Shown in pieces: positions 3,506-60,536 of a DNA stretch of 64,000 nt. The first letter of the stretch is position 1; each line of letters begins with the position of its first letter. The DNA is from Chryseolinea sp. H1M3-3 (lineage in GTDB: Bacteria; Bacteroidota; Bacteroidia; Cytophagales; Cyclobacteriaceae), in the NCBI RefSeq assembly GCF_029360725.1, contig NZ_JARKMY010000002.1:434001-498000 (forward strand). The letters run 5' to 3'. The position numbers and the translations under genes were made by a program. A model generated the notes under the pieces. That model was not told the origin of the DNA. It ran no database searches and worked only from the letters and a program-made list of their open reading frames with translations.

Positions 3506-3571
3506 CAAACTTAATTTGTATGCGTAATTTAAAATCAAACTTTAATCAAGTTGAAAAATGATTTTTATCAT
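3506..3571 (-). promoter_or_regulatory. FNR-type dyad ATGATTTTTATCAT (3558-3571) with -7 box TAAGTTTG (3506-3513)
   Basis: The dyad is a perfect ATGAT-N4-ATCAT palindrome centred at 3564.5. On the minus strand TAAGTTTG matches the Bacteroidota -7 consensus TAnnTTTG at all fixed positions, centre 3509.5, exactly 55 bp away; the dyad would sit near -62. This reads towards the uspA gene ending at 3077. No -7 box at either of the two spacings is found towards the kinase gene at 3601, although the dyad lies only about 30 bp from its start. Confidence 0.75.
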
Positions 3572-3600
3572 GTATTGCAGTATGCTATCTTACGGGCCCT

Positions 3601-4860
3601 ATGTTTCCCAACGGTACCATCCCCATACTTGATAGCGACGCTTTCAGAGAAATCTTCCAAAGCATGTCGGAAGGAATAATTATTGTCGACGATGCTGGAA
3701 AAATCGTTGCTGCTAATCCTGTATCCGAACAAATTTTTGGTTATGGTAAAGATGAGTTGAACGGTGCTCATTTGGAAAGCCTTTTGCCACACCGCTATCG
3801 CGGGCGGCATACAACTTTTCGGGAAAGCTTTAATCAACACCCTGAACCTCGACGGATGGGTTTTGGTCGTGATCTTCAGGCGTTGCGAAAGGACGGATCA
3901 GAATTCCCTGTAGAGATTAGTTTAAGCTTTACCAAAGTGAAAGGCCAATTGTTAGTGATGGCTTTTATCAGCGATATTTCAGAAAGAAAGAAAGCAGAAG
4001 AGGCGCTAAAACGCAGTGAGGAACAACTGTTGGTGTATGCGGCCGAGTTGGAGAAGAAAGTGGAGGCTCGTACGCAGGCATTGAACAATACCATCATCAA
4101 GCTGGAAGAAGAAGTGCGGGAAAGAAAACGAGCGGAGGAAGATGTTCGAAAGGCTTTTGAAAAAGAGCGTGAATTAAACGAACTTAAATCAAAGTTCGTT
4201 TCCATCGCTTCACATGAATTTCGTACACCCTTAAGCGCTGTGCTGAGTTCAGCTTCCCTTATCAGTCAATATAAAGATAAGGGAGAAATAGAAAAGGTTA
4301 CCAAACATGTGGCGCGGATTAAATCTTCGGTCACTCACCTGACGTCGATACTGAACGACTTTTTGTCGTTAGGAAAATTAGAAGAAGGGCGAATCGAAAT
4401 TAACATGGAGTCAGTATCCTTGACGGATTTTTTGACCGAGGTAAGAGAAGAACTCGTGGAAACATTAAAGCCAGGCCAGGATATTGAAATTAAATGTAAT
4501 ACAAAAGTAGAATTCCAAACCGACGCCCGTATTTTACGCAACATCTTGTTTAACCTTATCTCCAATGCAAGCAAATATTCAGATGCGGGAAAAAAAATAT
4601 TTGTGAATTGCAGCTTGCAAAACGATAGAATCACGTTTCATGTTAAAGACGAAGGCATTGGTATTCCGGAAGATGATTTTAAACACATGTTCGACCGGTT
4701 CTTTCGGGCCAGCAATGCAGGCAATACGCAGGGAACCGGACTGGGTTTGAACATTGTTAAACGCTATGCAGATTTGTTGGGAGGTAGCGTCACGTTCAAT
4801 AGCCGCTATGGTGAGGGTAGTACATTTTCAATCGCTTTGCCCCTTAATAAATCCTTATGA
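3601..4860 (+). CDS. PAS-domain sensor histidine kinase with FixL-like haem-pocket residues
   Basis: This is a 419-residue soluble kinase with no membrane segment. The PAS domain covers about residues 12-128, a coiled coil about 130-195, the HisKA domain has its phospho-acceptor in SIASHEFRTP (His205), and the ATPase domain ends the protein with N-, G1- (DEGIGIP) and G2- (GTGLGL) boxes. In the PAS domain His70 and Arg90 are spaced exactly like the haem ligand His200 and distal Arg220 of Bradyrhizobium FixL (GRH...GFGR), and the following RKDGSEFPVEISLS also aligns. Haem-based oxygen or NO sensing is therefore plausible but unproven, because non-haem PAS domains can share this block. The stop overlaps the start of the next gene (ATGA), so it is co-translated with its response regulator. 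Confidence 0.88.
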   Translation: MFPNGTIPILDSDAFREIFQSMSEGIIIVDDAGKIVAANPVSEQIFGYGKDELNGAHLESLLPHRYRGRHTTFRESFNQHPEPRRMGFGRDLQALRKDGSEFPVEISLSFTKVKGQLLVMAFISDISERKKAEEALKRSEEQLLVYAAELEKKVEARTQALNNTIIKLEEEVRERKRAEEDVRKAFEKERELNELKSKFVSIASHEFRTPLSAVLSSASLISQYKDKGEIEKVTKHVARIKSSVTHLTSILNDFLSLGKLEEGRIEINMESVSLTDFLTEVREELVETLKPGQDIEIKCNTKVEFQTDARILRNILFNLISNASKYSDAGKKIFVNCSLQNDRITFHVKDEGIGIPEDDFKHMFDRFFRASNAGNTQGTGLGLNIVKRYADLLGGSVTFNSRYGEGSTFSIALPLNKSL

Positions 4861-5918
4861 AAAAGATTCTTTTAATCGAAGACAACCTCGAGGTTCGGGA
4901 AAACACGGAAGAAATTCTTTCGCTAGCCAACTATAAAGTATTAACCGCACCTAATGGAAAAGTCGGCGTTGAACTTGCTCAGCAAGAGAAACCGGACTTG
5001 ATTATCTGTGACATCATGATGCCGGAATTGGATGGATATGGTGTATTGCATATTCTCAGCAAGAAAGACGAGACCGCCCGAATTCCATTTATTTTTCTCA
5101 CCGCCAAAACGGAGAAATCAGATATTCGAAAAGGTATGGCTCTGGGTGCCGATGATTATCTTACGAAACCTTTTGACGACACAGATCTGCTTAACGCGAT
5201 AGAAGTCCGGTTGCGAAAAAATGCTATGCAACAAAGACAATATGAAGCCAGTGCAGAGGGTTTGGATAATTTTATTAAAGATGCACAGCAGGTATTAAAC
5301 TTCAAAGACCTCGGTAAAGACAAGAAAGTTAAGTCCCTGAAAAAGAAGACCGAGGTTTTCGCAGAGGGAGATCTTCCGTTAAATGTCTTTTTTATCAAAT
5401 CGGGGAATGTCAAGACGTTTAAATCTAATCCCGATGGAAAAGAATTAATCATGAACCTGTATGTGGCAAACGATTTTTTTGGTTTCGAAGCAATTCTAGA
5501 AAATACCAATTATAAAGAATCCGCGGTGACGATGCAGGATACGGAGCTCGTCACCATTCCGCGACACGACTTTATGTTGATGATTCAAAATCACCCAGAC
5601 GTTTCAAAAAGTTTTATCAGCCTCTTGTGTAAAAAAGTTGCTGAACGTGAAGTACAGCTGCTTAACCTCGCTTACAACTCCGTACGTCAGCGAACGGCGG
5701 AAGCGTTACTCAAAGCGGAGACCCTGAAGGATTCGAAATCTGTCATTGCAATATCGCGCGATGACCTGGCAAAAATGGTAGGTACCGCAGCCGAATCGGT
5801 TATTCGTGTTCTATCAGACTTCAAAGATGAAGGGCTTATCGAAACCGAAGGAGGCAAGATAAAAATCCTTCAGCCAGCTAAACTTGAAAAAGTCGTACGC
5901 TGGAACGTTGCGAGGTAA
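4857..5918 (+). CDS. Response regulator: receiver domain fused to a CRP/FNR-family DNA-binding protein
   Basis: The 353-residue protein joins a receiver domain (about 1-122; acidic pocket ED at 8-9, phospho-acceptor Asp52 in CDIMMPELDG, Lys104 in LTKPF) to a cyclic-nucleotide-binding-type barrel (about 155-270) and a CRP-type winged helix (about 275-345). The recognition helix GTAAESVIRVL keeps the Glu and Arg that contact TGA half-sites in CRP/FNR proteins. No N-terminal Cys cluster of an Fe-S FNR is present. It is the partner of the upstream kinase (4-base overlap). The pair is equivalent to FixL with FixJ and FixK merged in one chain. A role as activator at the TGAY-N4-RTCA dyads of this window is an inference. 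Confidence 0.88.
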   Translation: MKKILLIEDNLEVRENTEEILSLANYKVLTAPNGKVGVELAQQEKPDLIICDIMMPELDGYGVLHILSKKDETARIPFIFLTAKTEKSDIRKGMALGADDYLTKPFDDTDLLNAIEVRLRKNAMQQRQYEASAEGLDNFIKDAQQVLNFKDLGKDKKVKSLKKKTEVFAEGDLPLNVFFIKSGNVKTFKSNPDGKELIMNLYVANDFFGFEAILENTNYKESAVTMQDTELVTIPRHDFMLMIQNHPDVSKSFISLLCKKVAEREVQLLNLAYNSVRQRTAEALLKAETLKDSKSVIAISRDDLAKMVGTAAESVIRVLSDFKDEGLIETEGGKIKILQPAKLEKVVRWNVAR

Positions 5919-5948
5919 TCGTTGAGCAACGCTGAATTTAGGCTGCGT

Positions 5949-6632
5949 CTAACGGCAGAGCACAATATCAATTATCCCTTCCTGAACGGAAGCGTGATGA
6001 GGAAGATGTATAAAAAATACACGGGCAATTAATAGGACACCAGAGACCACTAGCATTCCAGCGGTGATGTAGTGCAAGTTGAAGTGGAATCGTTTTATGA
6101 GTGAAGGGATGATGCTGGTTAGACCTAACATAACGGGGAGGGTACCCACACCAAACATCACCATGAAATAAAAACCTTGTAGCGGTGATTGAAGGGTTAG
6201 ACAATAAGAGAGCGCAATGAGGACCAGGCCACATGGAAGTAGGCCATTTAAAGTACCTAGTAAGAAAACTGCTCCATGATTTTTTTGGCGCAAAAACTTC
6301 GAGAAGAGATTTTTAATCACGGTAGCAAATTTTCCCACAGCCCTCGACAATATTGGGATATTCGGCTTCAGTAATCCAACCCCCACTAGCAACAAAGCAA
6401 TTCCCAGCAGTATTGAAACCAGGTTCTGGTATTTTGACATAGGCAAAAGGTATCCGGCGCTGGCTACCAGGGATCCTAAAACACCATAAGTAAGAAGGCG
6501 TCCGGCGTTATATACGCTTCTATTAAGAACTGCCTGCGGATTCATGTTACTGACAGCCATTGCCAATGGGCTACACATGCCAACGCAATGCAGGCTTCCG
6601 GCGAAACCCATGACTAACGCAGTGACTATCAT
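5949..6632 (-). CDS. Sulfite exporter TauE/SafE-like membrane protein of the cbb3 assembly operon
   Basis: The 227-residue protein has about six hydrophobic segments and starts with AGSLHCVGMCSP, the His-Cys-x3-Cys motif seen in the SafE/UreH-like proteins that accompany ccoGH in many Bacteroidota and proteobacteria. Members of this group are thought to take part in metal (copper) handling for the oxidase, although the family name comes from sulfite transport. It is the last gene of the ccoNO-Q-P-G-H run, one base after ccoH, and converges on the response regulator gene with a 30-base gap. A small dyad CGTTG/CAACG lies at 5920-5931 in that gap. Confidence 0.8.
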   Translation of the reverse strand: MIVTALVMGFAGSLHCVGMCSPLAMAVSNMNPQAVLNRSVYNAGRLLTYGVLGSLVASAGYLLPMSKYQNLVSILLGIALLLVGVGLLKPNIPILSRAVGKFATVIKNLFSKFLRQKNHGAVFLLGTLNGLLPCGLVLIALSYCLTLQSPLQGFYFMVMFGVGTLPVMLGLTSIIPSLIKRFHFNLHYITAGMLVVSGVLLIARVFFIHLPHHASVQEGIIDIVLCR

Positions 6633-6633
6633 A

Positions 6634-7068
6634 TTAAATGTAAATTATTTTTTCTAGAAAAAATTCTTCACCGTTCATAGTCCATGTCATCTTTGCCCGG
6701 TACATCCCTGGCTGCAGCATGTCCGTTGAAAAGGTTTGTACTAACCCAGCGTTTTTACTTATCGCAAATTTTTTATCTTTTGCTGAGTCAGAAGGTCTGA
6801 ATAAATTCAGCTCGCCATTTTCAACTTCACTAAAGCGGTCGAACGCAATTTCAAGTGTCCCCTGTTTTACAGAGATCTCCGGTCTTGTCTGTAATTGAGA
6901 AGCATTTTTCATTCGCACCATTTGACGCTCATATTCCAATTCTTCTTTGTAATAATCTTTAGAAACCAAGCTTATGTCTTGCTTTACGCACACTGCTACC
7001 AAAGATCCTATAAATGCTGCAAATGCGATAAACGCTACGATAATCCATTTTCCCCAATTCATAATCAT
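6634..7068 (-). CDS. ccoH: FixH/CcoH family cbb3 oxidase assembly protein
   Basis: This 144-residue protein has a single N-terminal membrane segment (about residues 6-28) followed by a periplasmic domain with the FixH feature KDYYKEELEYERQM just after the anchor. FixH/CcoH is needed for stable assembly of cbb3 oxidase and possibly for copper delivery. It starts at 7068; Met3 is an equally possible start. It lies seven bases after ccoG and one base before the SafE-like gene, in the usual order of such operons. Confidence 0.85.
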   Translation of the reverse strand: MIMNWGKWIIVAFIAFAAFIGSLVAVCVKQDISLVSKDYYKEELEYERQMVRMKNASQLQTRPEISVKQGTLEIAFDRFSEVENGELNLFRPSDSAKDKKFAISKNAGLVQTFSTDMLQPGMYRAKMTWTMNGEEFFLEKIIYI

Positions 7069-7074
7069 GTTATT

Positions 7075-8562
7075 TTAGTCTCTCTTTGCATCGGATGCCT
7101 TTGTCACTGGCCCGATAAACTTGGCTTTTACTGTTTCAACTAATTTCCCTTTTTCATATACGCCTAGTGTTACAACCGTGCGCGCCTTATTGACATTTTC
7201 CTCTGGAATTTTAATAAAGTATACACTCTTCACCATCCCTTCCGCTGGAACAACGATCCCTTTGCCGTCTACTTTATTAATAGTCGCATAGGCAGGTGAT
7301 TCGACCTTGATTTCGAGATGTAAATCCTCAAAAGTTTTATTAACAAATTCAACATTGTAAAGATTGGTAATCATGCCCGGCTCACGTTGATACAATGTTC
7401 CGGAAACTTTTAATATGGTCGTTTCAACATCAGACCGTGTTATAAGAGCAAATCCAAGCAGGCCTACCAAAGCGAGCAAAACGAAAGAATAACCCATCAC
7501 TCTTGGAGTGATGACTTTTTGAATCCCTTTAGTAATGGAATTGACAGAAGCATAACGAATTAATCCTTCGGGCTTTCCGATTTTAATCATCACCTCGTCA
7601 CACGCATCCATACATGCCGTGCAATTGACGCATTCCAATTGCGTACCATTGCGTATATCTATCCCGGTAGGGCAAACGTGGACACATAAACGGCAATCGA
7701 TGCAATCGCCCAGGTTAGGATCCACAGGTTGATTCTTCTTAAGGTGTCCGCGTGGCTCACCACGCAGCCAGTCGTATGCTACCACTATCGATTCCTTTCC
7801 CAGCAAAACACCTTGTAACCGTCCGTAAGGACAAACGGCGATACATGCTTGTTCTCTGAATTTTGCAAAGAGCCCATAGAAAATTCCGGTGAAGGAAACA
7901 AGTCCAACGAACCCTGCAATATTTTCAGCAGGGGAGTGGCTGGCAATTTCCATCGTCTTTTCAATTCCAATAAGATAAGCCATTAACGTATGGGCTATCA
8001 ACACTGAGATTAAAATGAATATGGTGTGTTTAAGCGTTTTCTTATACAATTTGGTAAAATCCCACGGTGCTTTGTCGAGTCTTTTTTGGGCAGCGGCGTC
8101 ACCTTCAATCCAATACTCAATTTTTCTAAACACCATTTCCATGAACAGCGTTTGAGGGCAAAGCCATCCACACCAGATACGACCAAATACAACCGTAAAC
8201 AGAATTATAAAAACGAAAAAAGTAATAAGTGTTACCGCCAGTAATACAAAATCCTGTGGCCAGAATGCTTGGCCAAAAATGACGAACTTTCGTTCAAAGA
8301 CATTCAGCAACAGCAGCGGCTGTCCGTTGATCTTAATAAATGGTCCACTGAAAAGCAGCGAAAGCAAAATCACAGTAACAAGAATGCGCCAATTGTGGAA
8401 TTTGCCTGAGGGCTTCTTTGGATAAAGCCAAAGACGTTTACCCGTTGCGTCTACGGTGGCAATGCTATCGCGGAATTCTTCATCTACAAATTCCTCCATT
8501 GGAACGCCGGCACTTTTCGCTAAGCGCTCCTTCCTTATGTTCATTCTTACAGCTCCATCCAT
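7075..8562 (-). CDS. ccoG: Cytochrome c oxidase accessory protein CcoG (FixG-like Cu/Fe-S membrane protein)
   Basis: The 495-residue membrane protein carries the NapH/CcoG-type motif GRIWCGWLCPQTLFMEM, then two 4Fe-4S cluster motifs (CIDCRLCVHVCP and CVNCTACMDAC), several membrane segments and a C-terminal immunoglobulin-like periplasmic domain. The N-terminus has the family hallmark FRDSIATVDATGKR. CcoG is known as a cupric reductase that supplies Cu(I) for the cbb3 active site. Start at 8562 is the first in-frame Met; Met7 is an alternative. It follows ccoP by 41 bases and belongs to the cco operon. Confidence 0.93.
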   Translation of the reverse strand: MDGAVRMNIRKERLAKSAGVPMEEFVDEEFRDSIATVDATGKRLWLYPKKPSGKFHNWRILVTVILLSLLFSGPFIKINGQPLLLLNVFERKFVIFGQAFWPQDFVLLAVTLITFFVFIILFTVVFGRIWCGWLCPQTLFMEMVFRKIEYWIEGDAAAQKRLDKAPWDFTKLYKKTLKHTIFILISVLIAHTLMAYLIGIEKTMEIASHSPAENIAGFVGLVSFTGIFYGLFAKFREQACIAVCPYGRLQGVLLGKESIVVAYDWLRGEPRGHLKKNQPVDPNLGDCIDCRLCVHVCPTGIDIRNGTQLECVNCTACMDACDEVMIKIGKPEGLIRYASVNSITKGIQKVITPRVMGYSFVLLALVGLLGFALITRSDVETTILKVSGTLYQREPGMITNLYNVEFVNKTFEDLHLEIKVESPAYATINKVDGKGIVVPAEGMVKSVYFIKIPEENVNKARTVVTLGVYEKGKLVETVKAKFIGPVTKASDAKRD

Positions 8563-8603
8563 TTCCGTAGATTCATTGATTGATTAACGACACCGCTTTT
8601 CGT

Positions 8604-9527
8604 TTAAAGTGATGCCTGAGATTTTGTTGTATCCGCTTTTTCCGTAGGCGGTGTAAATATTTCACCTTGTGGGCCTTTTGCGTTTTCGGGATTAGTACCT
8701 TTTAAACTCATTACAAAAAAGGTTACATCTCGTACGTCCTCTGGTTTCATTGATTTTCCCCATGCAGGCATTCCTTTTTCGACTACGCCGTTTTTAATTG
8801 TCGCGAAAACATTCTTAATATCGCCGCCGTGCAGCCAATAGGCATCCGTTAAATTCGGCCCAATGTTATTACCACCGCCATCATTGCGGTGACATGAGCC
8901 GCAGCTGTTGTTCATGAACACGGATTTTCCTTTTTCTATCAACGCTGCATCTTGCGTGAATACAAGCGTGTTTTCGTCGATGACGGTTTCCGGGCGTGCA
9001 GCTTTAATGCGTCGGGCTTGTTCTTCAGCTTGCGCTAATTCATTTTGATATTCCTCCTGCGAAAGAGGAAGACTGTGCATAAAATGAAATACAATGATGT
9101 ACACGACAGACCAACCAATCGTTCCATAAAAAAGCCATGTCCACCACGGCGGTAGGTGATTGTCCAGCTCCCTTATACCATCATAGTTATGATCGAGCTC
9201 GATATTTTTTTCTTCCGTTACAGGAACCGATGCATTCAGACGTTGTACCAACTTTGACCACCAGGATGGTTTTGGAACATAAGCCTTTCCGAGCTTTTGA
9301 GCTTTTTCTTTTTCCGCCTGCCCTGCGAGCGTGTTCAACACTTTAACGAGGTATATACCTACCGTTGCAGTTATAATTGCTGTAATTGTGAGAAAGGTTA
9401 CTACCAAATAAAAGGGCAATAACGGATCATTGATGGGATCATCCCAAAAAGATTTTTCAGCAACTTCTTGAGCAAACGCAGGAGCAGCAGCGCTAAAAAT
9501 TATTATCGAAAACAATACTTTTTTCAT
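8604..9527 (-). CDS. ccoP: cbb3-type cytochrome c oxidase subunit CcoP with one haem c
   Basis: The 307-residue protein has an N-terminal signal-like segment, two membrane helices separated by a cytoplasmic stretch, the CcoP signature DNHLPPWWTWLFYGTI, and a C-terminal cytochrome c domain with CGSCH and a Met ligand in KGMPAWG. Only one CxxCH is present, whereas classical proteobacterial CcoP has two; single-haem CcoP occurs in Bacteroidota. It passes electrons from periplasmic carriers to the oxidase core. The gene lies between ccoQ (eight bases) and ccoG. Confidence 0.92.
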   Translation of the reverse strand: MKKVLFSIIIFSAAAPAFAQEVAEKSFWDDPINDPLLPFYLVVTFLTITAIITATVGIYLVKVLNTLAGQAEKEKAQKLGKAYVPKPSWWSKLVQRLNASVPVTEEKNIELDHNYDGIRELDNHLPPWWTWLFYGTIGWSVVYIIVFHFMHSLPLSQEEYQNELAQAEEQARRIKAARPETVIDENTLVFTQDAALIEKGKSVFMNNSCGSCHRNDGGGNNIGPNLTDAYWLHGGDIKNVFATIKNGVVEKGMPAWGKSMKPEDVRDVTFFVMSLKGTNPENAKGPQGEIFTPPTEKADTTKSQASL

Positions 9528-9535
9528 AACATCAA

Positions 9536-9733
9536 TTATTTAATCGTCCTGTTTCTTTCATTCTCGTCCTTGCTATCGTCCGTGAGCGGCATTGATTTCA
9601 TTTTATCGATAAGCTTCTTGTCTGTTGTGAATACCCACCACAGAAGTCCAATGAAAAAGGCAAAAAAGATTATAAAGGAAATGACCGGCCATATGGCTAT
9701 GTTGTCAATACCCTGGAGAACATTTTTATACAT
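9536..9733 (-). CDS. ccoQ: Small membrane subunit CcoQ of cbb3 oxidase
   Basis: The 65-residue protein has one hydrophobic helix (about residues 14-37, ending GLLWWVF) followed by a charged cytoplasmic tail, as in CcoQ, a small stabilising subunit of cbb3 oxidase. Sequence conservation in this family is low, so the call rests on size, topology and position between ccoNO (21 bases upstream) and ccoP (eight bases downstream). Confidence 0.8.
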   Translation of the reverse strand: MYKNVLQGIDNIAIWPVISFIIFFAFFIGLLWWVFTTDKKLIDKMKSMPLTDDSKDENERNRTIK

Positions 9734-9754
9734 GATGAATAATTTTAATAGTTT

Positions 9755-11884
9755 CTATTGACCGGCGAGCTTTTCACCTTTGATGTCTTGTCCTAATCGT
9801 TGCAGGTAAGCAATCAATGCAATGATTTCCGCATCGTCGGGTACTTCAATACCATCGGCCTTTAAGGTACCAGCGATTTCTCCTGCTTGTTTTTCCAGAT
9901 CATTGTTTGCCTGGCTTTCATAATTGGCAGCGTAGGGTACGCCAATTGTTCTCAGTGCACTTATCTTTCCTGGCGTTTGATCTTTGTTAATAATTTGTTC
10001 AAATAACCAGGGGTAAGCGGGCATAATCGATCCGGTTGATACTGCATCAGGTGCTAGCATATGATTGTAGTGCCAGCTATTGGAATATTTTCCACCGATG
10101 CGGTGCAGATCTGGCCCTGTACGTTTTGATCCCCAAAGAAACGGATGATCATAAACAAACTCGCCAGCTTTTGAATATTCTCCATAGCGCTCCGTTTCAG
10201 AACGGAAAGGTCTAACCATTTGTGTGTGACAGTTTACGCAACCTTCACGTATGTAAATGTCGCGGCCGTGAAGCTCAAGTGGCGTATATGGCTTTACACT
10301 TGATATGGTCGGCACATTTGATTTTATCAGGAAAGTTGGAATCATCTCGATGATACCGCCGATAAGTATTGCTACTAACGTTAAAACTGTAAATAGTACA
10401 GGTTTATGTTCCAATACGCGGTGATGCCATCCGGCATTTCTTGCAGCCACATATTCTTTCATCAAAGGTGCTGCTTCCGCTTCTTCATTGGCAACAAAGT
10501 TTCCTGCATAGGCAGTCTTGATAAGATTATAAGTCATTATAATAGCACCGGTCAGATAGAACGCGCCACCGATCGCACGTAAACCATGAAGAGGGAGAAT
10601 CTGAACAGTTGTTTCTAAGAAATTTTTGTATACAAGAAAACCTTCCGCATTAAATTCTTTCCACATTAAACTCTGAACAACACCAGATACGTACATGGGC
10701 AGCGCATAGAAAATGATACCTAGTGTACCTAACCAAAAGTGTGTGTTGGCCAGCTTAGTGGAATAAAGTGTTGTCTTCCACATCCGTGGTACAGCCCAAT
10801 ACAACATTGCGAAAATCAGGAATCCATTCCAGCCTAATCCCCCAACGTGAACGTGAGCTACGATCCAGTCAGTGAAGTGAGCTATAGCATTAACATTTTT
10901 TAGAGATAACAGCGGTCCTTCCAGCGTAGCCATACCGTATGCGGTAATGGCGACTACCATAAATTTCAAAACAGGATCTTCACGTACACGGTCCCAGGCA
11001 CCACGAAGGGTCATTAATCCATTAAGCATACCACCCCATGATGGTGCAATCAGCATAATAGAAAAAACCACACCAAGTGACTGCGCCCAGTCAGGAAGTG
11101 AAGTATAAAGCAAATGGTGAGGACCGGCCCAGATATAAATGAATATTAGTGACCAAAAGTGAATGATGGAAAGACGATAAGAATACACCGGCCTGTTAGC
11201 AGCCTTGGGCAGGAAGTAATACATGAGTCCGAGGAACGGCGTGGTGAGGAAGAATGCAACGGCATTGTGACCATACCACCATTGTACCAATGCATCTTGC
11301 ACCCCGGCATACCATGAGTAACTTTTAAATGCCGTTACCGGCATTTCGAATGAATTGACAACGTGCAATACCGCTACCGTTACGAAGGTTGCGATATAAA
11401 ACCAGATGGCTACATACATGTGGCGCTCTCGGCGTTTTATAATTGTGCCGATCATGTTCCATCCAAAAACTACCCAGATAATGGTAATGGCGATGTCGAT
11501 CGGCCACTCCAGTTCAGCATACTCTTTAGAGGTTGTCATCCCCAGCGGAAGTGTAATGGCCGCAGCAACAATAATTAATTGCCATCCCCAGAAATGGATC
11601 CAGCTTAATGTATCGCTAAACATCCTGGTTTTAAGCAAACGCTGCATGGAGTAATACACACCAGCAAACATCGCATTGCCCACAAAAGCAAAAATGATGG
11701 CGTTCGTGTGAAGCGGTCGAATTCGCCCAAATGTTGTGTACTGTGTGTCAAAGTTAAAGATCGGATAGACCAGTTGGATCGCCGCAGTCAATCCTACCAG
11801 CATCCCTACCAATCCAAAAATGACTGTAGCAATCATAAACGCCTTGACAATCTTGTTGTCGTAGCTGAATTTTTCTAATTCCAT
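9755..11884 (-). CDS. ccoNO: cbb3-type cytochrome c oxidase, fused CcoN-CcoO catalytic and mono-haem subunits
   Basis: The 709-residue protein fuses the 12-helix CcoN oxidase core (about residues 1-475) to CcoO (about 505-709). CcoN shows the haem-copper histidines in RPLHTNAIIFAF, WYGHNAVAFF, AGPHHLLYT and DWIVAHVHVGG; CcoO shows the haem c site CVNCHTQMVRPFRSE. The complex reduces oxygen with high affinity and pumps protons in the inner membrane. Fusion of the two subunits is usual in this phylum. It heads the operon ccoNO-ccoQ-ccoP-ccoG-ccoH-safE; an FNR-type dyad at 11970-11983 lies 55 bp from a TACTTTTA -7 box, so it should respond to oxygen limitation. Confidence 0.96.
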   Translation of the reverse strand: MELEKFSYDNKIVKAFMIATVIFGLVGMLVGLTAAIQLVYPIFNFDTQYTTFGRIRPLHTNAIIFAFVGNAMFAGVYYSMQRLLKTRMFSDTLSWIHFWGWQLIIVAAAITLPLGMTTSKEYAELEWPIDIAITIIWVVFGWNMIGTIIKRRERHMYVAIWFYIATFVTVAVLHVVNSFEMPVTAFKSYSWYAGVQDALVQWWYGHNAVAFFLTTPFLGLMYYFLPKAANRPVYSYRLSIIHFWSLIFIYIWAGPHHLLYTSLPDWAQSLGVVFSIMLIAPSWGGMLNGLMTLRGAWDRVREDPVLKFMVVAITAYGMATLEGPLLSLKNVNAIAHFTDWIVAHVHVGGLGWNGFLIFAMLYWAVPRMWKTTLYSTKLANTHFWLGTLGIIFYALPMYVSGVVQSLMWKEFNAEGFLVYKNFLETTVQILPLHGLRAIGGAFYLTGAIIMTYNLIKTAYAGNFVANEEAEAAPLMKEYVAARNAGWHHRVLEHKPVLFTVLTLVAILIGGIIEMIPTFLIKSNVPTISSVKPYTPLELHGRDIYIREGCVNCHTQMVRPFRSETERYGEYSKAGEFVYDHPFLWGSKRTGPDLHRIGGKYSNSWHYNHMLAPDAVSTGSIMPAYPWLFEQIINKDQTPGKISALRTIGVPYAANYESQANNDLEKQAGEIAGTLKADGIEVPDDAEIIALIAYLQRLGQDIKGEKLAGQ

Positions 11885-11917: not shown

Positions 11918-11983
11918 TAAAAGTAGATCGGAAGTGAAAATTGAAACATGACATGCCTTAGAACGGGAACTGATTTTTGTCAG
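11918..11983 (-). promoter_or_regulatory. FNR-type dyad CTGATTTTTGTCAG (11970-11983) with -7 box TACTTTTA (11918-11925), cco operon
   Basis: The dyad (centre 11976.5; the palindrome extends to 16 bases, ACTGA...TCAGT) lies exactly 55 bp from the centre of TACTTTTA, which matches the -7 consensus TAnnTTTG in all but the last position. Transcription would start about 30 bases before ccoNO, with the dyad near -62. Confidence 0.7.
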
Positions 11984-13172: not shown

Positions 13173-13186
13173 CTGATTTTTATCAG
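13173..13186 (-). promoter_or_regulatory. FNR-type dyad CTGATTTTTATCAG upstream of the second PAS kinase
   Basis: A perfect inverted repeat (16 bases if the flanking A and T are counted), centred 103 bases before the kinase start. At the 55-bp distance only a poor -7 match (TAACTTAT) is found; TTATTTTG at 59 bp is a better box but off-register. The dyad is clear, the exact promoter is not. Confidence 0.55.
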
Positions 13187-13390: not shown

Positions 13391-13434
13391 ATGATTTGAA
13401 TCATAAGAGAAAAAATACACGGAACATAAATTTG
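13391..13434 (+). promoter_or_regulatory. FNR-type dyad ATGATTTGAATCAT (13391-13404) with perfect -7 box TAAATTTG (13427-13434), ric operon
   Basis: The dyad extends to TTATGATTTGAATCATAA. The -7 box TAAATTTG matches TAnnTTTG exactly and its centre lies 33 bp from the dyad centre, placing the dyad near -40 (class II position). The predicted transcript starts about 16 bases before the ric start codon. Confidence 0.8.
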
Positions 13435-14177: not shown

Positions 14178-14198
14178 CAGCATTTAATATTTTTTCGA

Positions 14199-16049
14199 AT
14201 GGAACTTAATCAGCAAATCCTCAGCGATTTGATTATCCACATGAAATATTCTAGGTACATTCCGGAACTGGAACGGAGAGAATTGTGGCCGGAAATCTGT
14301 GAACGGTATGCCTCAATGTTAATCAATCGTTATCCCGCACTTGAGACAGACATTCGAAGACAGCTTCAATTTGTTCTCGATAAGCATGTGTTACCATCTA
14401 TGCGTGCCATGCAGTTTGCTGGTGTGGCCATCGAAAGAAATAATAGCCGCATTTATAATTGTGCCTATATGCCTGTTGATGATATTCGTGCATTCTCGGA
14501 GGCGATGTTTTTACTATTGGGCGGCACGGGTGTTGGTTTTTCGGTACAGACAGATCATGTAGAACAACTTCCCTCCATTAACAAAGCCACGAAGCGTAGA
14601 AGGTTTTTGGTTGGCGATAGCTTGGAGGGATGGGCAGACTGCATAAAAGTGTTGATGAAAGGGTACTTTGGAGTTAGTGATTACATTCCTGATTTTGATT
14701 ATTCAGACATACGTCCTAAGGGTGCACGTCTCGTTACGGCAGGCGGAAAAGCACCGGGGCCTGAGCCTTTGAAGATTTGTGTTGCTCATGTGTCGGCGAT
14801 ACTTGATAGAAAAAAAGACGGAGAAAAATTGACGTCTCTGGAGTGCCACGACATCATGTGTCACATTGCGAATGCGGTTCTGGCGGGCGGCATCCGGAGA
14901 TCGGCTATGATCTCACTTTTCTCTTTCGGCGATGAAGAGATGCTAACGTGTAAGTTCGGTAATTGGTGGGAGCTGAATGAGCAACGCGGCCGGGCGAACA
15001 ACTCTGTAGTATTACACAGAGAATCACAATCCAAAGAGGCTTTTTTTGAGCTTTGGAAAAAAATTGAACTTTCGGGATCAGGAGAACCGGGCTTCTATTT
15101 TACAAATCATCCAGACTGGGGAACGAATCCTTGCTGCGAGATAGCGTTAAGACCGTTCCAATTCTGTAATCTCTGTGAGATTAATGTTTCAGATATTGAA
15201 TCTCAGGAAGACCTCAACGCCCGGGCTGGAGCAGCTGCATTTTTTGGCACACTCCAGGCAGGCTTTACCAACTTTCATTACCTGCGGGAAATATGGAAGA
15301 CAACCACTGAGAGCGAAGCGTTGATTGGCGTAGGTATGACGGGCATAGCAAGTGGCAAGATCCTGGATAAGGATTTAAAGGAAGTAGCCGAAGTTGTTAA
15401 AAAAGTCAATCTTGAAATTTCAAAGCAGATTAACATTCAGTTTGCTGCGCGGTGTACAACAATTAAACCGTCTGGCACTTCGTCGATCGTATTGGGAACT
15501 TCTTCCGGGATTCACGCTTGGCACAATGACTATTACTTGCGACGTGTCAGGATCGGGAAAAATGAAGCTCTATATGAATACCTGAAAAACAACCACCCTG
15601 AATTAATTGAAGATGATCTATTAAATCCGCGCCAAGGGGCTATTCGCATTCCTCAGAGGGCTCCCGGAAACTCCATAGTCCGAAGTGAAAGTGTAATGCA
15701 GTTGTTGGAACGCATTAAGAAATTTAATACCGAGTGGGTGCGTAATGGGTATCGAAACGGAAGCAATGCAAACAATGTATCTGCAACTGTAAGCATTAAG
15801 AATGAAGATTGGCAAAAAGTGGGAACATGGATGTGGGAAAACAAAGCTTCATATAATGGACTGAGTGTTTTACCATTTGACAGCGGTAATTACATGCAGG
15901 CACCATTTGAGGATATTACACAGCAAGAATTTGAGATACTCGAAAAAAGCCTGCGCGCGTTAGATCTCGCCAACGTCATTGAAGCTGATGACTTGACAGA
16001 TTTACAAGCGGAGGCAGCTTGTGCGGGGGGTGCGTGTGCGATCGTATAA
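14199..16049 (+). CDS. nrdJ: Adenosylcobalamin-dependent (class II) ribonucleotide reductase
   Basis: The 616-residue protein has the ten-stranded reductase barrel with MRAMQFAG near the start, the Cys/Glu active-site segment NPCCEIALRPFQFCNL, the loop KPSGTSSIVLGTSSGIHAW typical of monomeric class II triphosphate reductases, and a C-terminal redox pair in CAGGACAIV (Cys608, Cys613). Class II enzymes make deoxynucleotides with or without oxygen, which fits the setting between ric and a CRP/FNR regulator under an FNR-type promoter. It is shorter than the Lactobacillus enzyme (about 740 residues). No cobalamin riboswitch is evident in the 21-base gap upstream. Confidence 0.9.
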   Translation: MELNQQILSDLIIHMKYSRYIPELERRELWPEICERYASMLINRYPALETDIRRQLQFVLDKHVLPSMRAMQFAGVAIERNNSRIYNCAYMPVDDIRAFSEAMFLLLGGTGVGFSVQTDHVEQLPSINKATKRRRFLVGDSLEGWADCIKVLMKGYFGVSDYIPDFDYSDIRPKGARLVTAGGKAPGPEPLKICVAHVSAILDRKKDGEKLTSLECHDIMCHIANAVLAGGIRRSAMISLFSFGDEEMLTCKFGNWWELNEQRGRANNSVVLHRESQSKEAFFELWKKIELSGSGEPGFYFTNHPDWGTNPCCEIALRPFQFCNLCEINVSDIESQEDLNARAGAAAFFGTLQAGFTNFHYLREIWKTTTESEALIGVGMTGIASGKILDKDLKEVAEVVKKVNLEISKQINIQFAARCTTIKPSGTSSIVLGTSSGIHAWHNDYYLRRVRIGKNEALYEYLKNNHPELIEDDLLNPRQGAIRIPQRAPGNSIVRSESVMQLLERIKKFNTEWVRNGYRNGSNANNVSATVSIKNEDWQKVGTWMWENKASYNGLSVLPFDSGNYMQAPFEDITQQEFEILEKSLRALDLANVIEADDLTDLQAEAACAGGACAIV

Positions 16050-16101
16050 CACCCACAGAAAGTCATATATTATTACTAATTTTCTCCGAAAAAGGAGGAA
16101 A

Positions 16102-16689
16102 GTGTTTCCATCTAAAACTCTAGAAAAGTATCACGCAAAGCTTGTGAGCCTTCGTAAAGATCAGCTTCTATGTCACGAAGGGGATGTGGCATCTGATTAT
16201 TTCCAGGTTGAATCCGGTTCTGTTAAAATGTACAGTGCAAATCAGGACGGACAGGAATTCATTCAAGGCATTTTTGGCCCTGGTGAAAGTTTTGGAGAGC
16301 CCGCACTTATCGGCAAATTTCCATATCCGGGAAGTGTAGGTGCCCTTGAACCCGCTAAAGTCTGGCGATTGCCTGGTGATTATTTTTTTCAGATGCTTAA
16401 AGAAAATTTTGAGCTGCACCTTAAGATGGATCAGGTTCTTTGTCAGCGATTACGCTACAAGTCCATGGTGCTTTCAGAGATTTCCAGTTACGAACCCGAA
16501 CACAGAATCCTTTCGTTGCTTAAATATTATAAATCTAAAAACAGTACAGGTTCGCCGGTGTTGATTCCCTATACTCGTCAGCAACTTGCTGACATGAGTG
16601 GATTAAGAGTAGAGACCGTTATAAGGACTGTGAAGAAAATGGAAAAGGAAAAGAAACTAAGCTTGGATGGTCGTAAAATCAGATTTTAG
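16102..16689 (+). CDS. CRP/FNR family transcriptional regulator
   Basis: With a GTG start at 16102 the product is 195 residues: a cNMP-binding-type barrel (about 10-115), a dimerisation helix and a winged helix. The recognition helix GLRVETVIRTV closely matches the Val-Glu-Thr-x-x-Arg pattern of FNR/DNR, which reads TGA half-sites. The N-terminal cysteines of an O2-sensing 4Fe-4S FNR are missing, so it is more like the NO-responsive DNR/NnrR type or is signal-free. AGGAGG lies at 16093-16098, only three bases before the GTG. A longer frame from 16021 would overlap nrdJ by 29 bases and adds a non-family N-terminus. It is probably the third gene of the ric operon and hence autoregulated. Confidence 0.85.
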   Translation: MFPSKTLEKYHAKLVSLRKDQLLCHEGDVASDYFQVESGSVKMYSANQDGQEFIQGIFGPGESFGEPALIGKFPYPGSVGALEPAKVWRLPGDYFFQMLKENFELHLKMDQVLCQRLRYKSMVLSEISSYEPEHRILSLLKYYKSKNSTGSPVLIPYTRQQLADMSGLRVETVIRTVKKMEKEKKLSLDGRKIRF

Positions 16690-16733: not shown

Positions 16734-17078
16734 TCAGCATTCTACCCAATTGATCTTTGATATGATTTCCTTTTCTGAAAATTGGTAAATATCAAAATCT
16801 GCATCACGCATGTAAGCGGCAACATCAACGTAAAGATAGTCTGTGTTATCAAAGCCTTGTGTTAATAACTTGACGCAAGATGAATTGCAATCATTAATAA
16901 AAATCATTTTCCTGCGGTGACCGCTTTCGTTACCATGCTGTAAAGAAAGTGCAGCAAGCGTGCCGATCTCACCAACCCCTATGTCGACGAGGTGAAGTGC
17001 GATTTTGTGTGAAAGTTTTTTATCGGTAAGTTTCGTTGTCCCCGAGCATAAAAAAATCAATGCCGTATTATGTTTCAT
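16734..17078 (-). CDS. Putative metal-binding protein of the DGC family
   Basis: The 114-residue protein has the layout of DGC-domain proteins: an N-terminal strand ending in a Cys motif (LIFLCSGTTK), a mid segment GVGEIGTLAALS, and a C-terminal pair of cysteines in INDCNSSCVKLLTQGF, where Asn-Asp-Cys replaces the eponymous Asp-Gly-Cys. Such proteins are predicted to bind zinc or another metal through these cysteines; their function is unknown. An FNR-type dyad at 17149-17162 lies 33 bp from TAACATTG (-7 box), so it is controlled like norB and ric. It lies downstream of, and on the same strand as, the 606-residue Cys-rich protein but appears to have its own promoter. Confidence 0.65.
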   Translation of the reverse strand: MKHNTALIFLCSGTTKLTDKKLSHKIALHLVDIGVGEIGTLAALSLQHGNESGHRRKMIFINDCNSSCVKLLTQGFDNTDYLYVDVAAYMRDADFDIYQFSEKEIISKINWVEC

Positions 17079-17118: not shown

Positions 17119-17162
17119 CAATGTTATGGAACTACACTTTCAATTCACATGACAAAAATCAG
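17119..17162 (-). promoter_or_regulatory. FNR-type dyad ATGACAAAAATCAG (17149-17162) with -7 box TAACATTG (17119-17126)
   Basis: Dyad centre and -7 centre are exactly 33 bp apart. TAACATTG differs from TAnnTTTG at one position. The dyad overlaps the stop codon (17159-17161) of the upstream gene. Confidence 0.65.
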
Positions 17163-19000: not shown

Positions 19001-19044
19001 CAAAGTTGCAGAATTGCCAGGTCGCCTTATATGATTTAAATCAT
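19001..19044 (-). promoter_or_regulatory. FNR-type dyad ATGATTTAAATCAT (19031-19044) with -7 box CAACTTTG (19001-19008)
   Basis: This is a perfect 14-base palindrome, centred exactly 33 bp from the -7 box CAACTTTG (one mismatch to TAnnTTTG). It drives the 606-residue protein gene starting at 18979 and lies between that gene and norB. Confidence 0.75.
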
Positions 19045-21429: not shown

Positions 21430-21480
21430 CAAAATAGCCGTGTATTAAAAGTGCTCCTATGATTCAGGTCATAAGAGCAC
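21430..21480 (-). promoter_or_regulatory. norB promoter: dyad ATGATTCAGGTCAT (21459-21472) inside a 30-base inverted repeat; -7 box CTATTTTG (21430-21437)
   Basis: GTGCTC (21451-21456) and GAGCAC (21475-21480) flank the dyad so that each 12-base arm of the 30-base element matches with one mismatch. The -7 box keeps the TTTG core but lacks the leading TA; its centre lies 32 bp from the dyad centre. The longer arms make this the most extended dyad of the window. Confidence 0.7.
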
Positions 21481-22616: not shown

Positions 22617-22639
22617 AACAGTATAATTTTGATACTGAT

Positions 22640-22683
22640 CAAATGTCATATGTAAAGCGGGAATCATATATGATTAAAATCAT
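22640..22683 (-). promoter_or_regulatory. FNR-type dyad ATGATTAAAATCAT (22670-22683) with -7 box GACATTTG (22640-22647)
   Basis: The dyad extends to an 18-base palindrome ATATGATTTTAATCATAT (22668-22685). Its centre is 33 bp from GACATTTG, which has one mismatch to TAnnTTTG. It drives the fasciclin lipoprotein gene. Confidence 0.72.
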
Positions 22684-29020: not shown

Positions 29021-29338
29021 AGTTTGTGCTGTTAGGTTGAATTTGTTAGTTAGATATAATAGATAAAATAACGAGGTCGAATGTTTTTATCGATGCAAAG
29101 TATATGGTGCAGCTTTTAACCCTTATGATTCAAGTCATATTCGTGGTATGATTTGTATCAGCTTTAATACACTTAACGTAAGGTCTACGTGTAATGTCAA
29201 CGAAAGCAACGCAAGATTAGCCTTAATAACTCTGTTAAGTTAGTTCGGATACATCAATTGATCAAAACTATTACGTATTTTTTGGGATCAAAGTGTAAAA
29301 TAGACTCTCATAAACAATTCCCTGAGTAACTGTTTCGT
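29021..29338. other. Intergenic region between hemN and the nos operon
   Basis: This 318-base gap, with nos downstream and hemN upstream on the same strand, holds the nos promoter with tandem dyads (29096-29161). The remaining part (29162-29338) shows no gene and no clear terminator hairpin. Confidence 0.6.
29096..29161 (-). promoter_or_regulatory. nos promoter: tandem FNR-type dyads ATGATTCAAGTCAT (29125-29138) and ATGATTTGTATCAG (29148-29161), -7 box ATACTTTG (29096-29103)
   Basis: The dyad centres are 23 bp apart and lie 32 and 55 bp from the centre of the -7 box, so both the class II and the class I positions are filled. The box keeps the TTTG core. The predicted transcript starts about 72 bases before the cytochrome c gene. 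Confidence 0.75.
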
Positions 29339-37826: not shown

Positions 37827-37944
37827 CAAAAATATATTGCGGGCATTTCTGCCTGCTTGATGGGGGTCAGGGCGAAATATGATTTATGTCAGGTCTGGAA
37901 TTCAATAAAAGTTGATAATATTGACCTTGGACCTTTTACTTTTG
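37827..37944. promoter_or_regulatory. Divergent promoter: one FNR-type dyad ATGATTTATGTCAG (37879-37892) between two -7 boxes at equal distance
   Basis: On the minus strand TATTTTTG (37827-37834) leads to uspA-ccoI; on the plus strand TACTTTTG (37937-37944) leads to the metallo-hydrolase gene. Both match TAnnTTTG perfectly and both box centres lie exactly 55 bp from the dyad centre at 37885.5. One bound regulator could thus serve both directions. Confidence 0.8.
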
Positions 37945-46089: not shown

Positions 46090-46172
46090 TTGATGATAGT
46101 CAATGAAGTTCCTGATAATTGTCATACTTGCAGCACAGGATGCACCCGCAAACTCCTAAACATGTACCTTTG
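46090..46172. promoter_or_regulatory. Tandem FNR-type dyads TTGATGATAGTCAA (46090-46103) and CTGATAATTGTCAT (46112-46125) between mlaE and the VIT gene
   Basis: Centres are 22 bp apart, as at the flavodoxin promoter. Towards the VIT gene a perfect -7 box TACCTTTG lies at 46165-46172, but 50 and 72 bp from the dyad centres, off the usual 33/55 register. Towards mlaE only a poor box fits the register. The dyads are clear; which gene they serve is open. Confidence 0.55.
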
Positions 46173-48996: not shown

Positions 48997-49062
48997 CAAA
49001 GATTGGGGGAACGGAAGATGTTTTTAATGAGTATAGTCAAATCACCAACTGACTTTTATCAA
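48997..49062 (-). promoter_or_regulatory. FNR-type dyad CTGACTTTTATCAA (49049-49062) with -7 box AATCTTTG (48997-49004)
   Basis: The centres are exactly 55 bp apart. The box has one mismatch to TAnnTTTG. The dyad lies only seven bases before the ATG of the divergent gene at 49070, so that gene must use another promoter or start further downstream. Confidence 0.68.
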
Positions 49063-49069
49063 CTTCCAC

Positions 49070-49798
49070 ATGCGCAAAATGTATGTGAAGTTGATAACGA
49101 TCAGTGCATTGCCGTTTGCACTGCTTTACATTTGTAACATGAACAAAAGAACACGCTATACGAGGTTGGGAAAATTCTTTGGCGTTTTTTTCCTCTTGCT
49201 TATTGTCCATCATTTTGTAATTCGACCCTGGATGTTGGATTGGGGCGCACCGAAAAAAATCGAGAAGTTAACATTGAGCGGAGACCGATTTATTAATGGA
49301 CGATCGCATACCCGTGCCGTGCTAATCCACACCACGCCTGATAAAATCTGGCCATGGCTGGTACAAATGGGTCAGGAACGCGGAGGAATGTACAGTTACA
49401 CGTGGTTAGAAAACATTGTTCTGGCAGACATGAAAAATACGTATGTCATCAGACCGGAATTTCAAAAACCGAGAATGCAGGGTGATACCATATGGCTAGC
49501 TAACAAGCGTCGTTACAAGGGAAAGGGCCACCAAATATTCGCTGAGGTAATTCCGGAAAAATCAGTCATTATGGTCGGTGATCAGGATTATATGAGGATT
49601 CAAAATGGGCAAACAGCAACAGGAGCCTGGAGTTTTTATCTCGTTCCTCAAGACGAGGAGTCAACCTGGCTAATTGCACGCTCGACAGAAGACGAGACAA
49701 TTGGTAAAAGAGTGTTGCGCTATTTTACCTATGAAATTCCGCATTTCATTATGGAACAAAAAATGCTGAGGACGGTCAAACGACTTTCCGAAGCGTAA
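49070..49798 (+). CDS. Membrane-anchored SRPBCC (START-like) domain protein
   Basis: The 242-residue protein has a hydrophobic N-terminus with one or two membrane segments (about 5-25 and 34-55), then a SRPBCC-type domain: VLIHTTPDKIWPWLVQMGQ, GMYSYTWLENI, ATGAWSFYLVPQDEESTWLIARS, FEIPHFIMEQKML-like end. Such domains bind hydrophobic ligands; the function is unknown. The start is uncertain because the dyad of the divergent usp gene lies seven bases upstream; Met at residue 24 (MNKRTRY) is an alternative. Confidence 0.75.
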   Translation: MRKMYVKLITISALPFALLYICNMNKRTRYTRLGKFFGVFFLLLIVHHFVIRPWMLDWGAPKKIEKLTLSGDRFINGRSHTRAVLIHTTPDKIWPWLVQMGQERGGMYSYTWLENIVLADMKNTYVIRPEFQKPRMQGDTIWLANKRRYKGKGHQIFAEVIPEKSVIMVGDQDYMRIQNGQTATGAWSFYLVPQDEESTWLIARSTEDETIGKRVLRYFTYEIPHFIMEQKMLRTVKRLSEA

Positions 49799-49846: not shown

Positions 49847-49912
49847 CTGATGTAAATCATATCCAGTATTGAATTCGGTCATTCCATTGCAGAGCCTGCA
49901 GAGATATTTTTA
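49847..49912 (+). promoter_or_regulatory. FNR-type dyad CTGATGTAAATCAT (49847-49860) with -7 box TATTTTTA (49905-49912)
   Basis: The centres are exactly 55 bp apart; the box has one mismatch to TAnnTTTG. It drives the phosphoribosyltransferase gene and probably the frameshifted gene downstream. Confidence 0.7.
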
Positions 49913-53574: not shown

Positions 53575-53640
53575 CTGATTGAAGTCAGATTTATCCTTGA
53601 TTCAAATCATAGCAATGGTGCATGATCATCCTTTCCTTTG
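53575..53640 (+). promoter_or_regulatory. Tandem FNR-type dyads CTGATTGAAGTCAG (53575-53588) and TTGATTCAAATCAT (53597-53610), -7 box TTCCTTTG (53633-53640)
   Basis: Dyad centres are 22 bp apart and lie 55 and 33 bp from the -7 box centre, so both positions used elsewhere in the window are filled, as at nos. The box has one mismatch to TAnnTTTG and reads towards the flavodoxin-like gene. Confidence 0.72.
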
Positions 53641-53693
53641 GGATGTTTAAGTAAGGTCTTATCCAACTTCGGGTTGTCAGATTCAATACACAT

Positions 53694-59892: not shown

Positions 59893-59952
59893 GCCGAAAG
59901 GGCTCAGCAAATACTGCAGCCAAGACCGCGCTGAAAGTTAAAGTTTAACGCT

Positions 59953-60366
59953 TTACATCGCCCGCTCGATAAACCCAAACAGATTTTCCTTATATTCTGT
60001 AAAAGCATTGTTGAACGATTCAAGTTCTTGCATGATGGCATCATGCTCTTTAAAGTATTCTGTTTTCGTTTCGTCCTTTGTTTGAAGCATGTCTGCGAGC
60101 CTGGTTTCATGATCACGGAGTTTTTTTCGCAGATCGACGATTAACTCATTCTTATAGTAGATCAATAAGTTCTGGAAATGGTCAATTTGCTTTTTGTCCT
60201 CAACGGCTGTGAATTTGGACGCGTATTGATCCAGTAGCTTTTGGAAAAAGTTAAATTCCCGCTGCCATAGCAGTGTAGCGGAGAGCCAGTTAAGTGTCCT
60301 TCGATGTTTCTCCAATAAGGATGGTTGAAGAATGTAGTTGGTGGTAACTGATGCAGCAGAGATCAT
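59953..60366 (-). CDS. Uncharacterised helical protein of 137 residues
   Basis: I do not recognise this protein. It has no signal peptide or membrane segment and is almost wholly alpha-helical with heptad-like spacing (LNWLSATLLWQREFNFFQKLL, then LIVDLRKKLRDHETRLADML), suggesting a helical bundle or coiled coil. It is divergent from ppsA and controlled by a perfect dyad (60437-60450) exactly 55 bp from a TAGCTTTA -7 box, so it belongs to the same regulon as the usp and cco genes. That is the only clue to its role. Confidence 0.7.
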   Translation of the reverse strand: MISAASVTTNYILQPSLLEKHRRTLNWLSATLLWQREFNFFQKLLDQYASKFTAVEDKKQIDHFQNLLIYYKNELIVDLRKKLRDHETRLADMLQTKDETKTEYFKEHDAIMQELESFNNAFTEYKENLFGFIERAM

Positions 60367-60384
60367 ATAAGTATATTTTTAATG

Positions 60385-60536
60385 TAAAGCTACTGAATCT
60401 CAATTTCGTGAATCCTGACAATTATAAGAGCATGAAATGATTATTATCATATCATCATTTCTTTCAAAATCTGACTTTAATCAATTCTGTTGCTGACGCC
60501 AATCATGGGGAAACGAGGCTTATAAAAATAGTTTTG
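60385..60536. promoter_or_regulatory. Divergent promoters with two FNR-type dyads, ATGATTATTATCAT (60437-60450) and CTGACTTTAATCAA (60471-60484)
   Basis: Towards the minus-strand gene, TAGCTTTA (60385-60392) lies exactly 55 bp from the first dyad centre. Towards ppsA, TAGTTTTG (60529-60536), a perfect TAnnTTTG match, lies exactly 55 bp from the second dyad centre. Each gene thus has its own dyad; the dyad centres are 34 bp apart. Confidence 0.8.

Follow-up and report, generated by a model that had tools for sequence, protein, structure and literature searches.

What reads the short inverted repeats that recur in the promoter regions of a respiratory gene island, and why do they lie at two fixed distances from a promoter box? 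The question is raised by a stretch of 64,000 nucleotides from Chryseolinea sp. H1M3-3 (the window; G000:C12:434001-498000, in a genome of 6.88 Mb on 19 contigs with 6,877,905 bases), which carries genes for a cbb3 oxidase, for nitric oxide (NO) and nitrous oxide (N2O) reduction, and for a PAS kinase followed by a receiver-CRP/FNR fusion protein. We propose, with a probability of roughly 0.6, that the dyads form twin sites for CRP/FNR-family proteins, read locally by the receiver-CRP fusion and in relatives mostly by a four-cysteine FNR.

Dyads in register with a promoter box

The original prediction described an island-wide regulon of 20 dyads in promoter regions, in excess of chance. All 20 match TGAYNNNNRTCA, each starting one base later than given there, where numbering was 0-based, and the excess is borne out: the window holds 30 matches, while 100 dinucleotide shuffles give a mean of 5.34 and a largest value of 13, none reaching 30. 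The genome as a whole contains 666 dyads (186 for a reversed-pattern control), or 6.2 per 64 kb, such that the window is enriched about 4.8-fold over the genome rate. Twenty-one of the 30 lie outside listed open reading frames (ORFs), with about 10% of the window being intergenic (binomial p = 6×10⁻¹⁵).

Distances were measured from the dyad centre to a TAnnTTTG box, for all 30 sites in both directions and over 100 distances. Perfect boxes occur four times at 33 bp and four times at 55 bp; the other 98 distances average 0.06 and never exceed 1. When one mismatch is allowed, the counts become 8 at 33 and 10 at 55; the other distances then average 0.56, and their highest count is 3. These 18 dyad-box pairs involve 15 distinct boxes, three of which each serve a 33 dyad and a 55 dyad. 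Thus, of the 15 promoters claimed at 32-33 or 55 bp, the number and the 55-bp peak stand, but the near distance is exactly 33, with no case at 32. The boxes in register mark predicted promoters, read from sequence, and at least one of the 15 (60419-60426, TATAATTG) is probably a chance match. Three dyads overlooked at first (37858, 49092 and 60494) each lie exactly 33 bp from a perfect box.

A scan of the whole genome, the check originally proposed, finds both spacings enriched. Among gaps of 8-38, 9 of 28 perfect boxes lie at exactly 33, and among gaps of 39-69, 6 of 31 lie at exactly 55; reversed-pattern controls give 4 boxes in each range. Outside the window lie five of those at 33 and two of those at 55. 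The left flank (C12:420001-434000) holds a single dyad with no in-register box; the right flank, to 517000, has four, all with a box (at most one mismatch) at 33, 34, 55 or 56.

The same distances recur in loci chosen by the fusion protein alone, the best 80 of a longer match list (69 more distant, 11 closer). These contain 304 dyads, compared with 51 for the reversed pattern. In the 69 distant loci, perfect boxes number 23 at 33 and 25 at 55, with a mean of 0.30 and a maximum of 3 away from 32-34 and 54-56; in the 11 closer loci there are one at 33 and five at 55 (elsewhere mean 0.06, maximum 3). Across 98 genomes of the family, exact matches number 348 at 33 and 262 at 55, compared with 50 at a control distance of 44. 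The FNR/CRP-type character of the regulon and its strict spacing to the -7 box therefore stand, but it is not confined to the island, the design being family-wide.

Twin sites in one composite promoter

The far distance is the near distance plus 22 bp, because promoters with a strict dyad at 55 usually carry a partner dyad at exactly 33. In the 80 loci and the window together, 29 of 34 strict-55 promoters score at least 6/8 at 33, with no more than one doing so at any other register tested; conversely, 16 of 28 strict-33 promoters score at least 6/8 at 55. Five 55-promoters of the window have a degraded dyad at exactly 33 (6/8 for 3559 and 11971; 7/8 for 49050, 49848 and 60438), while 37880 on the plus strand and 60472 on the minus strand score 3 there. 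Fifty-five promoters that combine a perfect box with one or more strict dyads were grouped at 55% identity into 47 clusters, and both sites score at least 6/8 in 34 of these 47 but in only 17 of 799 background positions. Gaps between dyads in the 80 loci peak at 22 and 23. Since dyads are paired 22 bp apart, the 33 and 55 peaks are not independent.

These data point mainly to one composite promoter with two FNR-type sites 22 bp apart, near -41.5 and -63.5. The numbering follows from placing the box at -12 to -5, as described for Flavobacterium psychrophilum in the accessible text of PMC9723704, and shifts the positions of about -40 and -62 that had been proposed.

Candidate readers of the sites

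The main local reader is most likely the receiver-CRP fusion 4857-5918, to judge from its domains and its conserved kinase partner. Like CRP2 (16021-16689), a standalone CRP/FNR protein, it contains PF00027 and PF13545. Its closest cultured matches among those listed are from Ohtaekwangia koreensis (82%), Chryseolinea serpens (79%) and Dawidia soli (76%). Receiver residues D9, D52, T82 and K104, which we take to be those of the active site, are invariant in 12 of 12 orthologues; Glu and Arg are present in the recognition helix, and the protein lacks a four-cysteine set. Among the 60 of 321 matches listed, no solved structure spans both the receiver and the CRP parts.

The genes for kinase 3601-4860 and the fusion overlap by 4 bp, with no gene between, and the kinase PAS domain matches FixL (E = 4×10⁻¹⁴). 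In 70 of the 80 loci an ORF of at least 200 amino acids ends just upstream of the fusion gene, with a PAS match in 67 of these 70. Among 68 PAS domains (window included, FixL excluded), 67 have His at the column of the FixL RSRH motif, presumably the heme ligand, and 41 have Arg at the GIGR column, presumably the oxygen contact.

Two side observations concern related proteins. The second PAS kinase of the window (12006-13076) has His at the FixL position and Met at the Arg column, with no adjoining response-regulator gene. Loci L113 and L118 are two more receiver-CRP fusions in the same genome, with helices TESLNR and LESLNR and dyads nearby; the L118 fusion is preceded by an ORF that looks like GroEL by eye.

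A standalone FNR-like protein (at least 179 bits to L138) is found in 55 of the 98 family genomes, its best NCBIfam match being Fnr, below the cut-off. When the best such protein per genome is taken, four cysteines are present in 52 of 55; G009 and G090 are without all four, and that of G014 is cut by a contig end. The recognition helix in 57 standalone proteins reads ETVIR (41), ETLIR (13), ETIIR (2) or ESVIR (1). The two regulators tend to replace each other: 42 of 54 genomes without the fusion carry a standalone four-cysteine FNR, and over the 98 genomes both occur in 10, the fusion only in 34, the FNR only in 42 and neither in 12 (Fisher p = 6×10⁻⁸, uncorrected for shared ancestry). A looser standalone count gives 11, 33, 44 and 10 (p = 2×10⁻⁸). 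Where a genome has a standalone regulator but lacks the fusion, the site at exactly 33 scores at least 6/8 for 36 of 66 listed 55-matches and at least 5/8 for 48 of 66; other registers reach at most 4 and 13 of 66, respectively.

A proposed low-oxygen switch and the points against it

We infer dimer binding, phosphorylation, heme and iron-sulphur sensing, and activation as follows. The dyads would be binding sites for CRP/FNR-family dimers, two of which would typically sit side by side, 22 bp or two helical turns apart, with either site strict or degraded. The lower dimer, near -41.5, would stand beside RNA polymerase at the TAnnTTTG box (the class II position), and the upper near -63.5. Low oxygen, or another heme ligand, would cause the FixL-like kinase to phosphorylate the receiver; the FNR-like half could then bind the twin sites and turn on genes for the cbb3 oxidase, NO and N2O reduction, heme synthesis and universal stress proteins (Usp). 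In relatives, the same sites would mostly serve a standalone four-cysteine FNR that senses directly, the cis code being kept and the sensor swapped.

Several observations weigh against this scheme. No in-register box precedes the kinase-fusion operon in the window. Of the 20 dyads originally listed, 7 have no box at 33 or 55 on either strand even when one mismatch is allowed. The dyads of nosZ, norB and hemN are among these, and the norB, nosZ/cytochrome c and hemN genes may therefore use degraded boxes or another promoter. Registers one base off are raised too in the 69 distant loci (5 at 32, 5 at 34 and 6 at 56). The kinase PAS domain finds its best PDB match not in FixL but in 10jx (E = 7×10⁻¹⁵), which has His at that position as well. 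Of eight HTH_Crp_2 hits in the genome, seven pass the cut-off; CRP2, whose recognition helix is nearly identical to that of the fusion, is one of them. Site numbers hardly differ between the 44 genomes with the fusion and the 54 without (means of 3.7 versus 3.4 at 33, p = 0.89; 2.8 versus 2.6 at 55, p = 0.48), and the control distance differs slightly (0.70 versus 0.35, p = 0.014). Finally, in the ten genomes that have neither the fusion nor a standalone match scoring at least 179 bits, 23 site matches lie at 33 and 8 at 55. This amounts to 2.3 and 0.8 per genome, compared with 3.7 and 2.9 in the remaining 88 (tallied by hand), and G006 and G056 account for 15 of the 23.

Given equal site numbers with and without it, the fusion is not needed for the code, and we reject it as the sole reader family-wide. 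Because standalone-only genomes carry twin sites and the regulators are complementary, a shared code with different transducers is indicated. Whether this extends to a conserved twin-site low-oxygen code in Bacteroidota, with two interchangeable transducers, the sensor swapped and the promoters fixed to the base pair, seems to us evenly balanced.

Other explanations

It is possible, though we doubt it, that CRP2 reads the sites directly, perhaps in response to NO, and that the kinase-fusion pair acts above CRP2 in a cascade or on other genes. The CRP2 helix VETVIR has the ETVIR core common to 41 of the 57 standalone proteins and differs little from ESVIR in the fusion; the gene run of CRP2, with the RIC iron-sulphur repair protein, has a dyad promoter with a perfect box at 33; and many genes of the island concern NO and N2O. 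However, CRP2 has no four cysteines, and the code appears strongly in loci picked by the fusion protein alone.

Two separate promoter classes, a class II near -41 and a class I near -62 that do not require twin sites, as originally claimed, are an unlikely account. Both distances are real and single-site promoters do exist (12 of 28 strict-33 promoters score below 6/8 at 55, 5 of 34 strict-55 promoters below 6/8 at 33, and 37880 on the plus strand is one case in the window). Most promoters nevertheless follow one tandem design: the partner at exactly 33 in 29 of 34, with none or one at other registers tested (55 aside), the 36 of 66 in standalone-only genomes, with at most 4 at any other register, and the dyad gaps of 22 and 23 led us to set the two classes aside in favour of twin sites.

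Chance, in which AT-rich intergenic DNA would give short dyads and boxes that were paired by hand, may account for one or two window boxes but is already refuted as a general explanation by the far lower counts at control distances, since sharp peaks stand at the same two distances in the window, the 80 loci and the 98 genomes, a spacing as hard to get by chance as had been claimed.

Predicted target genes in relatives

Behind the dyad promoters of the 80 loci lie 111 ORFs, named by their best window match and collected at distances of 33, 34, 55 and 56 with one box mismatch allowed, so that some are there by chance. They include ccoNO (15), hemN (11), kinase (9), Usp (16), cytochrome c (4), CcoI-type ATPase (3), fusion (3), iron-sulphur repair (3) and 17159-type (2) genes; single cases include NosZ and phosphoenolpyruvate (PEP) synthase, and 39 have no window match. 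These predicted targets are similar to the FixK-type micro-oxic set. The presence of kinase and fusion genes among them suggests that the kinase-fusion operon may control itself in relatives.

Relation to known systems

Escherichia coli FNR acts through class II and tandem-site (class III) activation, with a repeat of 4-bp spacer, a site near -41.5 and an optional upstream dimer in phase. The promoters described here share the inverted repeat with 4-bp spacer, the lower site near -41.5 and the second dimer site upstream in phase. They differ in that the half-site is TGAY, without the outer T of TTGAT (outer T in 19% of distal and 34% of proximal sites; mirror-side A in 13% and 11%), that the sigma box is TAnnTTTG, that the second site is mostly at 22 bp, and that the local candidate reader has a receiver and no cysteine set.

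In rhizobia, the FixL-FixJ-FixK cascade acts through FNR-type boxes on genes for the cbb3 oxidase, CcoI-type ATPase, hemN, nor and nos. A FixL-like PAS kinase, FNR-type boxes and a shared target set liken our system to this cascade (compare the abstracts of PMC7888657 and PMC6710368). Unlike the rhizobial system, ours has no separate FixJ, a receiver with a LuxR-type helix-turn-helix; the receiver is fused directly to CRP/FNR activator domains, giving one step instead of a cascade, and the sigma promoter is different.

The HcpR/DNR/NnrR regulons, in the accessible text of Rodionov 2005 (PMC1274295), likewise place nitrogen-oxide genes under CRP/FNR-family control with a 4-bp-spaced palindrome (DNR box TTGATnnnnATCAA, HcpR TTGACnnnnGTCAA); HcpR2 of most Bacteroides is given there as GTAACnnnnGTTAC, for hcp alone, and the words Bacteroidetes and Cytophaga are absent from the main text. 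The F. psychrophilum start-site map (PMC9723704) shares the TAnnTTTG box and reports induction of cbb3 oxidase and heme genes at low oxygen; in its accessible main text Fnr and Crp are absent and no dyad is described. The Porphyromonas gingivalis proteins HcpR, PgRsp and CrpPg belong to the same phylum and to the CRP/FNR family, and none is described in the accessible text of PMC12040651 as receiver-fused or as reading twin sites.

Among the open-licence papers searched, we found none on an FNR-type code tied to the Bacteroidota promoter box, which is weak evidence of novelty. Bacteroidota include many N2O reducers and micro-oxic respirers. The proposed code would predict transcription starts to the base and supply a regulon for cbb3 and nitrogen-oxide genes. 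It would also provide an example from nature in which the sensor was replaced while the cis code stayed as it was, and would put an activator at the well-known -41.5 register ahead of the unusual sigma box of the phylum.

Promoters and genes of the window

Table 1. Predicted promoter elements and genes of the window. Distances (33, 55) run in bp from dyad centre to box.
Feature	Position	Strand	Context
Strict dyad TGATTTTTATCA at 55	3559..3570	-	before Usp 3077-3538; 6/8 dyad TGATTAAAGTTT at 33; box TAAGTTTG 3506-3513
Dyad at 55	11971..11982	-	before ccoNO; 6/8 dyad TAAGGCATGTCA at 33; box TACTTTTA 11918-11925
Dyad	13174..13185	-	before second PAS kinase 12006-13076; no box (at most 1 mismatch) at 33/55
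Dyad at 33	13392..13403	+	before RIC/ScdA 13455, RNR-like, CRP2 run; perfect box TAAATTTG 13427-13434
Dyad at 33	17150..17161	-	before 16734-17078; box TAACATTG (1 mismatch) 17119-17126
Dyad at 33	19032..19043	-	before 17159-18979; box CAACTTTG (1 mismatch); 6/8 dyad at 55
Dyad	21460..21471	-	before NorB-type 19086-21410; no box at 33/55
Dyad at 33	22671..22682	-	before fasciclin-domain protein 22062-22667; box GACATTTG (1 mismatch) 22640-22647
Two dyads 23 bp apart	29126..29160	-	before cytochrome c 28550 and nosZ 26517; no box (at most 1 mismatch) at 33/55
Dyad	30773..30784	-	before hemN, within adjoining ORF 30760-31971; no box at 33/55
Two strict dyads 22 bp apart	37858..37891		33 and 55 from box TATTTTTG 37827-37834, for Usp 36955-37806
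Dyad 37880, also at 55			from box TACTTTTG 37937-37944, for 38024
Two dyads 22 bp apart	46091..46124		in the interval from mlaE to VIT1, before VIT1; the nearest perfect box lies at 50, out of register by five bases
Dyads 49050 and 49092, 42 bp apart	49050..49103
Dyad 49050 at 55			for Usp 48137-48979; box AATCTTTG (1 mismatch); 7/8 dyad at 33
Dyad 49092 at 33			box TACATTTG 49127-49134, within ORF 49070 as listed
Dyad at 55	49848..49859	+	before 49930; 7/8 dyad at 33; box TATTTTTA (1 mismatch) 49905-49912
Two strict dyads 22 bp apart, at 55 and 33	53576..53609	+	box TTCCTTTG (1 mismatch); before flavodoxin-like 53694
Dyad at 55	60438..60449	-	before 59953-60366; 7/8 dyad at 33; box TAGCTTTA (1 mismatch) 60385-60392
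Two strict dyads 22 bp apart, at 55 and 33	60472..60505	+	box TAGTTTTG 60529-60536; before PEP synthase 60536-62968
Dyads without box in register	13174, 21460, 29126, 29149, 30773, 46091, 46113		both strands scanned, at most 1 mismatch
PAS kinase + receiver-CRP fusion	3601-5918
PAS histidine kinase	3601..4860	+	PAS alignment to FixL, His and Arg at RSRH and GIGR positions
Receiver-CRP/FNR fusion	4857..5918	+	Response_reg + cNMP_binding + HTH_Crp_2; recognition helix AESVIR; candidate dyad reader
cbb3 oxidase block	5949..11884	-	DsbD_2 protein, FixH, FixG-type, FixP-type, fused CcoNO
Second PAS kinase	12006-13076
Iron-sulphur repair protein (RIC/ScdA) + RNR-like protein + CRP2	13455-16689	+
CRP2, standalone CRP/FNR protein	16021..16689	+	no four-cysteine set; recognition helix VETVIR
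NorB-type protein	19086-21410
NosD + Sec-dependent NosZ	24169-28496
HemN	29339
P-type ATPase	34546		CcoI type judged by place
Usp	3077-3538, 36955-37806, 48137-48979
PEP synthase	60536-62968

Boxes GACATTTG and TACATTTG fall inside ORFs 22062-22667 and 49070 as listed, so that the true starts are probably further in. Each strand has a box in register with the dyad pair 37858-37891, an arrangement that would suit divergent promoters.

Rfam and tRNA scans of the window gave no matches. At E = 1×10⁻⁸, four proteins had no NCBIfam name: 17159-18979, 16734-17078, 49930-50583 and the NorB-type protein. ORFs 30760 and 31955, for which Pfam gave no family, may be NnrS-like.

Small proteins that look similar by eye stand beside dyad promoters at three places (59953-60366, for which Pfam gave no family, L111:14645-15091 and L118:4754-5158). 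Outside the island, L116:5144-8641 has three dyads at 33 from boxes, beside a standalone CRP with helix REVISR; its neighbours look by eye like a metallo-hydrolase and an efflux operon. ORF 17159-18979, preceded by a dyad at 33, encodes a protein of 606 amino acids that neither Pfam nor NCBIfam placed in a family at the thresholds applied, and a match to it lies behind dyad promoters in two loci.

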